A stretch of 64,000 nt of DNA. Source: Natronorubrum daqingense. GTDB taxonomy: Archaea > Halobacteriota > Halobacteria > Halobacteriales > Natrialbaceae. Of the stretch, positions 48,437 through 51,890 are shown one piece after another (within the stretch, counting starts at the first letter, position 1; each line of letters opens with the position of its first letter). The DNA lies in contig NZ_CP019327.1 of the NCBI RefSeq assembly GCF_001971705.1, positions 124,001-188,000 of the forward strand, given 5' to 3'. A program made the position numbers and the translations under genes. The notes under the pieces were generated by a model. The model saw only the letters and a program-made list of their open reading frames with translations. It was not told the origin of the DNA and did no database searches.

Positions 48437-48563
48437 CCGCCCGAGAGCCCGGAGGCCTTGCCGCCACTAAATCGCGCGTTACGCCTCGAGTCGAGAGTGC
48501 TAGTCCGTCCCGGTGGCGAACCAGTCCCGAAATCGTTTTCAACCGCTCACGCGGACACTCGGT

Positions 48564-50252
48564 ATGCCGACGGAATCGGACACTCATTATGACCCTTCCC
48601 TGGGGAACAAGTTCATCTTCGTCACCGGCGGCGTGATGTCGGGACTCGGCAAGGGGATCACGGCCGCGAGCACCGGCCGACTCCTCAAAACGGCCGGGTT
48701 CGACGTGACTGCCGTGAAGATCGACCCGTATCTCAACGTCGACGCGGGGACGATGAATCCGTACCAACACGGAGAGGTGTACGTCCTCGAGGACGGCGGC
48801 GAGGTCGACCTCGATCTGGGGAACTACGAGCGCTTCCTCGATATCGACATGACCTCGGACCACAACATCACCACCGGGAAGACGTACCAACACGTCATCG
48901 AGAAGGAGCGTGCGGGCGACTATCTCGGGAAAACCGTCCAGATCATCCCACACATCACCGACGACATCAAGCGGCGGATTCGGGAAGCCGCCGAGGGCAC
49001 CGACGTCTGTCTCATCGAAGTCGGTGGCACCGTCGGTGACATCGAGGGGATGCCCTACCTCGAGGCCTTACGCCAGTTCGCTCACGAGGAACCCGAGGAG
49101 AACGTCCTCTTCACGCACGTCACGCTCGTCCCGTACTCGAAAAACGGCGAGCAGAAGACGAAACCGACCCAACACTCCGTCAAGGAGGTCCGTTCGATCG
49201 GTCTCCAGCCGGACATCATCGTCGGCCGCTGCGAGGATCGACTCGACCCCGAGACGAAAGAGAAGATTGCGCTGTTCTGTGACATCCCGACCGACGCGGT
49301 GTTCTCGAACCCCGACGTCGAGGACGTCTATCACGTCCCGTTGATGGTCGAAGAGGAAGGACTCGACCAGTACGTCTTAGAGCACTTCGGACTCGCCGAC
49401 GAAGCGCTGGCGACCGGCGAGCGGACGAACGACTGGCGCGAGATCGTCACGACCGAGAAAGACGGGAACGTGGATGTCGCACTCGTCGGAAAGTACGACC
49501 TCGAGGACGCCTACATGTCCATCCACGAGTCGCTGAAACACGCCGGCTTCGAGGTCGGTGTCGACGTGAACGTCCACTGGGTGGCCGCCGATGAACTGGC
49601 CGACGGCCACGACGGCCAACTCGAGGGAATGGAGGGCGTTATCGTCCCCGGCGGCTTCGGCATGCGCGGCTCGGAGGGCAAAATCGAGGCCGTTCGCTAC
49701 GCCCGCGAGAACGACGTTCCGTTCCTCGGGCTCTGTCTCGGCTTTCAGATGGCCGTCGTCGAGTACGCCCGGAACGTGCTGGGACTCGAGGGCGCACACT
49801 CCGCTGAAATGGTCGAGGATACGCCACATCCGATCATCGACATTCTGCCCGAACAGTACGAAGTCGAGGACATGGGCGGGACGATGCGACTCGGCGAGCA
49901 CACGACCGTGATCGAACCCGAGACGCTCGCCTACGACCTCTACGACGACACGTCCTGTACGGAGCGCCACCGCCACCGATACGAGGTCAATCCGGAGTAC
50001 TTCGATGACTTCGAGGACGAACCGCTGACGTTCTCGGGAACGGCAGGAAACCGAATGGAGATCCTCGAACTCGAGGATCACCCCTACTTCCTCGGGACGC
50101 AGTTCCACCCCGAGTACACGTCCCGACCCGGCCAGCCGAGTCCGCCGTTCCTCGGCCTCGTCGAGGCGATTGCCGGAGACGGGAACGGGACAAACGCGGC
50201 GGACGCGGACCGCGACTCGACGACCGATGCGGAAACGGAGGTTACTCACTGA
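48564..50252 (+). CDS. pyrG: CTP synthase
   Basis: This 562-residue enzyme aminates UTP to CTP with glutamine. The amidoligase domain has [20 protein letters not shown] (P-loop), [20 protein letters not shown] and [17 protein letters not shown]. The glutaminase domain has [19 protein letters not shown] (catalytic Cys) and the FHPEYTSRP His/Glu pair. The ATG at 48564 is placed where the family starts, and an upstream TTG-initiated form is less likely. The stop overlaps the start of the GMP synthase subunit (TGATG), so two glutamine-linked nucleotide steps are coupled. Confidence 0.96.
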
Positions 50253-51169
50253 TGGTAGAAACAGACACGTTCGTTCCAGAGGCAGTTGCAGAGATCGGCG
50301 ACGAAATCGGCGACTCGAACGCCGTCATCGCGCTTTCGGGCGGTGTCGACTCCTCGGTCGCCGCCGCACTCGCGTACGAATCGATCGGGGACCAGCTTAC
50401 TCCGGTCTACGTCGATACCGGATTGATGCGCAAAGGCGAGACCGACCAGATCCGCGAGACGTTCGACTACATGGAGTCGCTGCGGATCGTCGACGCGAAA
50501 GATCGGTTCCTCGAGGCCCTCGCCGGCGTCACGGACCCCGAGGAGAAACGACACATCATCGGCGAGCAGTTCATCCGGGAGTTCGAGCGCGAGGCGACTG
50601 AGGCCGACGCTGACTACCTCGTCCAGGGGACGATCTATCCCGACCGAATCGAGAGCGAGGGGGGAATCAAGTCCCACCACAACGTCGGCGGCCTCCCCGA
50701 CGTCGTCGATTTCGACGGCATCGTCGAACCCGTCCGCGACCTCTACAAGGACGAAGTTCGCGAGGTCGCACGCCACCTCGGCCTCGACGAAATCGTCGCC
50801 GAGCGGATGCCGTTCCCCGGCCCCGGCCTCGCCGTGCGCGTCATCGGCGAAGTCACCGACGAGAAACTCGAGGTCGCGCGCCACGCCTGTCACGTCGTCG
50901 AGGACGAACTCGAGGAGTACGAGCCGTGGCAAGCCCTCGCCGCCGTGATCGGGAAGGCGACCGGTGTCAAAGGTGACAATCGGGTTCACGGCTGGGTCGT
51001 CTCCGTTCGCTCGGTCGACTCCCGTGATGGCATGACCGCCCGTGCTCAGGAAATCGACTGGCAGACCCTCCAGCGGATCCAGTCGCGTATCACCGGCGAG
51101 AACGAAACCGTCGCTCGCGTCGTCTACGACGTGACGCACAAGCCACCGGCGACGATCGAGTACGAATGA
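50252..51169 (+). CDS. guaAB: GMP synthase ATP pyrophosphatase subunit
   Basis: This 305-residue protein is the ATP-PPase subunit of the two-subunit archaeal GMP synthase, converting XMP to GMP with ammonia from a separate glutaminase. The PP-loop is [42 protein letters not shown] and the C-terminal dimerisation domain ending [16 protein letters not shown]-like ([17 protein letters not shown]) are family-typical. The glutaminase (guaAA) is not in the window. It overlaps pyrG by one base and the next gene by four (ATGA). Confidence 0.95.
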
Positions 51170-51504: not shown

Positions 51505-51520
51505 TGTCGCTCTTTTTCAC
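51505..51520 (+). terminator. T-run terminator of the pyrG-guaAB operon
   Basis: Ten bases beyond the last stop codon the sequence reads CGCTCTTTTTCACGAGCG, a pyrimidine run with five consecutive T flanked by CGCTC/GAGCG. Poly-T tracts of this sort terminate archaeal transcription. Confidence 0.5.
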
Positions 51521-51599
51521 GAGCGGTACGGACGCATATCGCACACGCGACGGACAGTGAAACGGAAACCAATCACGATACCTGAAATGTAATCGATCT

Positions 51600-51890
51600 C
51601 GAACGGAGATTTAGCCGAATAAAACTGGGCTAAATTCGGTGGAATCCGGTGTAAGACACTGCTACCATCGCCCCGGTTGAAGTGCAAGCCGCTGATTGGA
51701 TGAGATGGAGGTCGACGGGCAGACCCCACCAAGGCATTATGCCTATTCCCGTGACTTCCAGCAACCCCACCACAGCACCCTTCCCCACCATTGCCACACC
51801 GTTTTCTAACTGACACGGGCTCTTGCACCAGTCCGTGTCGGCTACGGTAGGCAATTTCGAGGCGCGTCAACCCGACGCGCTTCTTTACTG
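51600..51890 (-). other. Gene-free region with a cluster of stable hairpins
   Basis: Between 51496 and 52019 no protein gene is convincing. The segment has several perfect hairpins: TTTAGCC/GGCTAAA (51610-51634), AGGCA-TTA-TGCCT (51732-51744), GACACGG/CCGTGTC with a 14-nt loop (51812-51839), and GCGCGTC-AACCC-GACGCGC (51862-51880). GC content is lower than in flanking genes. It may be a structured non-coding RNA or a relic of an IS200/IS605-like end. The strand is uncertain. The reading frames that cross it are repetitive and lack family features. Confidence 0.4.

Follow-up and report, generated by a model that had tools for sequence, protein, structure and literature searches.

Most of what is understood of haloarchaeal RNA biology comes from Haloferax and Halobacterium. 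In bacteria, C-rich small RNAs (e.g. those with RsaE-type UCCC motifs) bind G-rich ribosome-binding sites. Intergenic sRNAs, sRNA132 among them, are described for Haloferax volcanii (PMC6560208), and a halite community study mentions 22 conserved itsRNAs of Halobacteria with no assigned function (PMC7002113). A literature search, with supplements and subscription papers outside its scope, found no report of the RNA considered here. In the 64 000-nucleotide stretch of Natronorubrum daqingense DNA that we analysed (the window), 525 bases between two convergent genes assigned with Pfam, DUF7126 (PF23443; 51166–51495, + strand) and 5-FTHF cyclo-ligase (PF01812; 52020–52991, − strand), contain a candidate RNA gene. 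There is little doubt that this locus is an RNA gene, and the best explanation is that it is probably an independent noncoding RNA gene, occupying roughly 51590–51890 of the + strand and functioning by the mechanism proposed below. This prediction draws on family conservation, covariation and the minimum free energy (MFE) of folding, with the 5′ end predicted near 51591 and the 3′ end after the last hairpin.

DUF7126 is preceded on the + strand by genes that we take from their translations to be pyrG (48513–50252) and a guaA-type gene (50252–51169), and a presumed MoaB-like gene runs on the − strand, like the cyclo-ligase gene. In 16 of 21 relatives, including families without the RNA, the stretch fetched with DUF7126 also held the guaA-type gene. 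The literature search found no paper naming DUF7126. The original prediction described at least four perfect hairpins in 280 bp, in a region without a convincing gene, lower in GC than its neighbours and preceded by a T-run, and this description held up well. A TTTTT run (51513–51517) lies 3′ of the DUF7126 stop, the GC content of the RNA region is 0.52–0.58 versus mostly 0.60–0.69 in the adjoining genes, and the two − strand ORFs spanning the region matched no Pfam family. The hairpins are present, and the + strand of 51590–51890 folds with an MFE of −112 kcal/mol, where shuffled sequences average −87.4 (s.d. 5.0; z −4.93), with none of 100 shuffles as low; for the − strand, z was −2.06 and 3 of 100 shuffles were as low. 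The first hairpin read on the sequence, ATTTAGCC/GGCTAAAT (51609–51616/51628–51635), is private to the window lineage, being found in 1 of 91 aligned homologues and shared by a 97% identical relative (L002) that was excluded as redundant. The other window hairpins are conserved helices in homologues.

A blastn search with the intergenic region gave a single match per genome in 54 genomes out of 100 (window genome included), corresponding to 54 of 61 Natrialbaceae and 0 of 39 others. A covariance model built from these 54 sequences, applied with a threshold of E ≤ 0.001, detected the RNA in 115 of 125 Natrialbaceae genomes and 26 of 29 genera, nearly always as a single copy, as in the window genome. 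Across 292 genomes sampled from the class, matches at this threshold were confined to 68 of the 74 listed family genomes; none of the approximately 218 sampled haloarchaea outside the family (292 minus 74) reached it, the best E value there being 0.002. Weak matches outside the family were put down to chance, since the four that were checked (G219, G098, G343 and G171) are not beside DUF7126. Plasmids yielded no match to the RNA, and neither did viral contigs when searched with an exact pattern. Loci were fetched for 114 of the 115 model-positive genomes, leaving out G163 (contig edge); L087 (G035) was scored and not aligned. The 113 located homologues were reduced to 92 by dropping L086, which contains an N, and removing sequences more than 96% identical; omission of the truncated L121 left 91 for later counts. 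In L086 (G134, contig 14), part of the RNA recurs at about 1860–2003, joined via an adapter-like stretch, to our eye resembling a Nextera adapter, and the N; this second match is more likely an error of assembly than a true duplication.

One genus (g9) accounts for six of the ten model-negative family genomes. A search with filters off revealed, 300-odd nt downstream of DUF7126 in four of these six, a divergent copy in which the P1 stem (see below) is altered on both sides to GGAGACCACG/CGTGGTCTCC. These copies (L092–L095) carry a longer apical domain on P1, and a hairpin (CTGGATATC..CCAG) occupies the place of the CCACCACAG segment found elsewhere, an arrangement that is possibly an intermediate form. 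No RNA was found downstream of DUF7126 in two g9, two g6 and one g4 genome, and the second g4 genome, which is about half complete, has no DUF7126 match. The two g6 genomes and two of the six g9 genomes thus show that the RNA is not universal in the family.

Covariance analysis of homologues had been suggested as a check by the original prediction, and it revealed two strongly covarying helices. We used an alignment of 92 homologues plus the four divergent g9 copies (A2, 96 rows), fitted to the covariance model, so that its counts lean towards the modelled structure: the 18 modelled pairs are standard in 98.2% of cells, and pairing drops to 40–58% when the partner is slid by 1–3 columns. Two-sided changes were observed in 72 cells of A2 compared to 10.4 on shuffling; 0 of 500 shuffles reached 72, a count that is no probability because the rows are related. 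A MAFFT alignment built without structure recovered both helices, and 8 of the 18 pairs showed two-sided changes there. Covarying helices across homologues of this kind are one mark of a conserved structured ncRNA gene, another being a discrete transcript.

The first helix, P1, is a 13-bp stem with one bulge in the window (+ strand; 5′ strand TGGAGGTCGACGGG, 51706–51719; 3′ strand CCCGTGACTTCCA, 51748–51760). It is near-invariant, with 99.4% of cells paired and two-sided changes at 2 of 11 pairs, and it encloses a modestly conserved apical hairpin, AGGCA/TGCCT (51732–51736/51740–51744, + strand). The second, H3 (GACACGG/CCGTGTC; 51812–51818/51833–51839, + strand), was read on the sequence and is backed by covariation, with two-sided changes at 7 of 7 pairs and 96.1% of cells paired. 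Hairpin H4 (GAGGCGCGTC/GACGCGCTTC; 51859–51868/51874–51883, + strand), which includes one G-U and is followed by TTT (span 51859–51886), covaries too, with A-U in place of G-C at several pairs. Perfect hairpins of at least 7 bp were present in the H4 search span, which includes H3, in 70 of 91 sequences versus 46 of 273 control segments, and TTT lay within 25 nt of the hairpin in only 28 of those 70. The end of H4 is the probable 3′ end of the RNA. As for the strand, 91 of 96 sequences have G-U at one P1 pair, and a second pair is mixed (G-U 58, G-C 26, A-U 11); read on the − strand these G-U cells would be C/A mismatches, which identifies the + strand as that of the RNA. The 5′ part gave no well-supported covarying structure, and its hairpins are weak in the consensus. 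An extra helix between TTGCC, at the end of the C-rich strand, and GGCAA, after H3, looked suggestive in the window and was not significant in the family (64 of 1000 shuffles).

Between P1 and H3 lies a C-rich strand, GCAACCCCACCACAGCACCCTTCCCCACCATTGCC (51761–51795, + strand), which is near-invariant and mostly unpaired. Many of its columns were invariant in the 54-sequence set, and across 91 sequences its mean unpaired probability is 0.70 versus 0.05 for the P1 5′ strand. We tentatively propose this strand as the active part of the predicted RNA, acting in trans. A one-mismatch target search with its 14-nt core gave no surplus over the reversed control. The C run inside it is 2–6 nt long in 81 of 83 motif-matching sequences, and the length of the P1 span varies likewise, neither following a triplet rule; the region is therefore not coding. 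A small protein gene might still be suspected, as certain frames run without a stop in many sequences (one of them in as many as 62 of 91), but this reflects the rarity of stops in GC-rich DNA, and the absence of a Pfam match and the compensatory changes add to the case for regarding such a gene as exceedingly improbable. Sequence comparison thus establishes a conserved + strand structure, a near-invariant C-rich strand, a near-constant locus and no conserved coding frame.

Conservation of a single copy across a family is typical of housekeeping and guide RNAs, so a known RNA of this kind (RNase P, SRP, box C/D or box H/ACA) could conceivably have been missed by Rfam. The only genome matches to archaeal SRP RNA (RF01857; C1:675507–675818) and archaeal RNase P RNA (RF00373; C1:3206482–3206932) lie elsewhere, however, and Rfam 15 gave no match above the gathering threshold in the window and none at E ≤ 10 in the RNA region. 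Box C/D guide RNAs carry a C box (RUGAUGA) and a D box (CUGA), and RTGATGA...CTGA occurred in 0 of 91 sequences on either strand; box H/ACA guides, which combine a hairpin bearing a guide pocket with an ACA tail, were addressed through the Rfam scan. When four segments of the RNA were compared with 16S and 23S+ITS, 11 to 47 of 60 shuffles paired equally well or better, and the complement of the C-rich strand in 16S or 23S rRNA was no better than shuffles. A known RNA in disguise is, on this evidence, very unlikely.

In 110 of the 113 loci (52/54 in the first set, 58/59 in the second), DUF7126 precedes the RNA on the same strand, and the convergent cyclo-ligase gene was found in 104, with no such gene found downstream within the fetched stretch in the other nine. 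This setting between convergent genes, together with the terminal hairpin, could mean that the region is a cis-acting 3′ UTR or terminator region common to the two genes, with no trans function, and incomplete termination past DUF7126 could let read-through in. Among the DUF7126 exceptions, L121 is a contig end. In G049, DUF7126 lies 1.7 kb further up and a TnpB gene (PF07282; L021, 112–1161, − strand; L201) sits between it and the RNA, while in G020 the RNA is present with no DUF7126 within 8.9 kb upstream. The RNA is therefore not an obligatory UTR, and these two genomes, along with the nine loci where cyclo-ligase was not found, indicate that it is retained even where a neighbour has been displaced or was not found. 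The conservation of an unpaired C-rich strand also goes beyond the needs of a terminator, and a purely cis-acting role is unlikely.

The insertion in G049 is the only TnpB gene that we met. The original prediction had offered two possibilities, a structured RNA made as an independent transcript or an IS605-like end with associated RNA. The first gains from the covariation, the strand-specific G-U pairs, the presence in 115 of 125 genomes and the persistence where a neighbour is absent or displaced, and stands for what is still a predicted transcript; the second is not supported. Hairpin richness would suit an IS200/IS605 end, but no TnpA or TnpB gene adjoins the RNA in the window, where its neighbours are DUF7126 and 5-FTHF cyclo-ligase. 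Nor is there a sign of mobility, with one copy in the window genome, a single match in nearly every family genome, a vertical and syntenic distribution and no plasmid or viral-contig match, and we give this explanation practically no weight.

The 5′ segment has a different character. Its length hardly changes between the first conserved TRAAC (near 51591) and P1, and this part includes five degenerate repeats (about TTRAATYCGG; 51620–51668, + strand), phased at 10.5 nt and almost indel-free across the family. The A-frequency in the segment has a period of 10.5 nt, with a power reached by 0 of 2000 column permutations, and within-sequence identity is 0.40 at lags 10–11 and 0.39 at 21, versus about 0.18–0.25 at most other lags. 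A GTTSAAGT box (51676–51684, + strand) stands exactly 30 nt before P1 in 90 of 91 sequences and is retained in the divergent g9 copies. Since 10.5 is the pitch of B-DNA, the repeats are read as a DNA-binding array, and there is close to an even chance that they act on the DNA side in this putative role; they may instead act at the RNA level. The exact period and fixed spacing could be taken further, with the whole locus being mainly a DNA element (a protein-binding or bent-DNA site for a regulator or for chromosome organization) and the RNA secondary. This would leave the downstream covariation and the G-U wobbles unexplained, and a survey of 41 genomes found the array pattern nowhere else, although only 10 of these matched at such stringency, once each and all at the RNA locus. 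We consider a mainly DNA-level element improbable.

A promoter can be predicted just upstream. The haloarchaeal promoter consensus is CGAAA/TTWT (PMC4983044), and the window has a BRE-like TGAAA at 51558–51562 (+ strand), supported by an offset signal in homologues: of 92 homologues, 12 have NRAAA 150 nt before P1 and 13 have it 149 nt before, with at most 4 at other offsets from −175 to −91. TTWT/TTAY follows 11–12 nt later, at −138/−137, in 9 and 7 of the 92, and also reaches 9 at −99, so the TATA-like second signal is weak. In the window the TGAAA is correctly placed but the TATA box is weak, while TTAT is present in several relatives; no more than about a quarter of sequences show a clear promoter signal.

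For an independent noncoding RNA gene, the following mechanism can be proposed. The gene, inherited vertically in Natrialbaceae, would be transcribed on the + strand over approximately 51590–51890 from its own promoter, with the 10.5-nt repeats binding a regulator on one DNA face and thereby controlling RNA synthesis, and the last hairpin would end or protect the transcript. The C-rich strand, held between P1 and the two 3′ hairpins, would meet one conserved partner, either an RNA-binding protein or G-rich stretches of target mRNAs, and the RNA would therefore act in trans, as an RNP scaffold or a base-pairing regulator. A bolder version, which we regard as speculative and rather doubtful, is that of a family-defining Natrialbaceae RNP whose C-rich strand docks one important partner and whose promoter lies under a helically phased operator, making it a lineage-specific global regulator without counterpart in the model haloarchaea. 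With more than 90% of the family's 125 genomes retaining it, the RNA stands out as a strong candidate for an important function; it also offers a ready target for deletion and pull-down, and the covariance model can be rebuilt from the loci for annotation.

Among known systems, the predicted RNA resembles archaeal SRP RNA and RNase P RNA in being a single-copy structured RNA of similar size, but both of these are present elsewhere in the genome and neither matches the RNA locus. The likeness to C-rich bacterial sRNAs lies in an unpaired, conserved C-rich strand between hairpins; it is an analogy of working, and the present RNA is archaeal and longer, with no target found. Like the itsRNAs described in PMC7002113, it is intergenic and conserved with no assigned function; on this comparison by description, it may or may not be one of those 22. 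It shares with Haloferax volcanii sRNA132 (PMC6560208) the character of a haloarchaeal intergenic noncoding RNA gene for which action in trans is proposed, as we propose it here. It differs from sRNA132 in being approximately 300 nt long and family-wide, at a near-constant locus, with a covarying structure and no member found outside Natrialbaceae.
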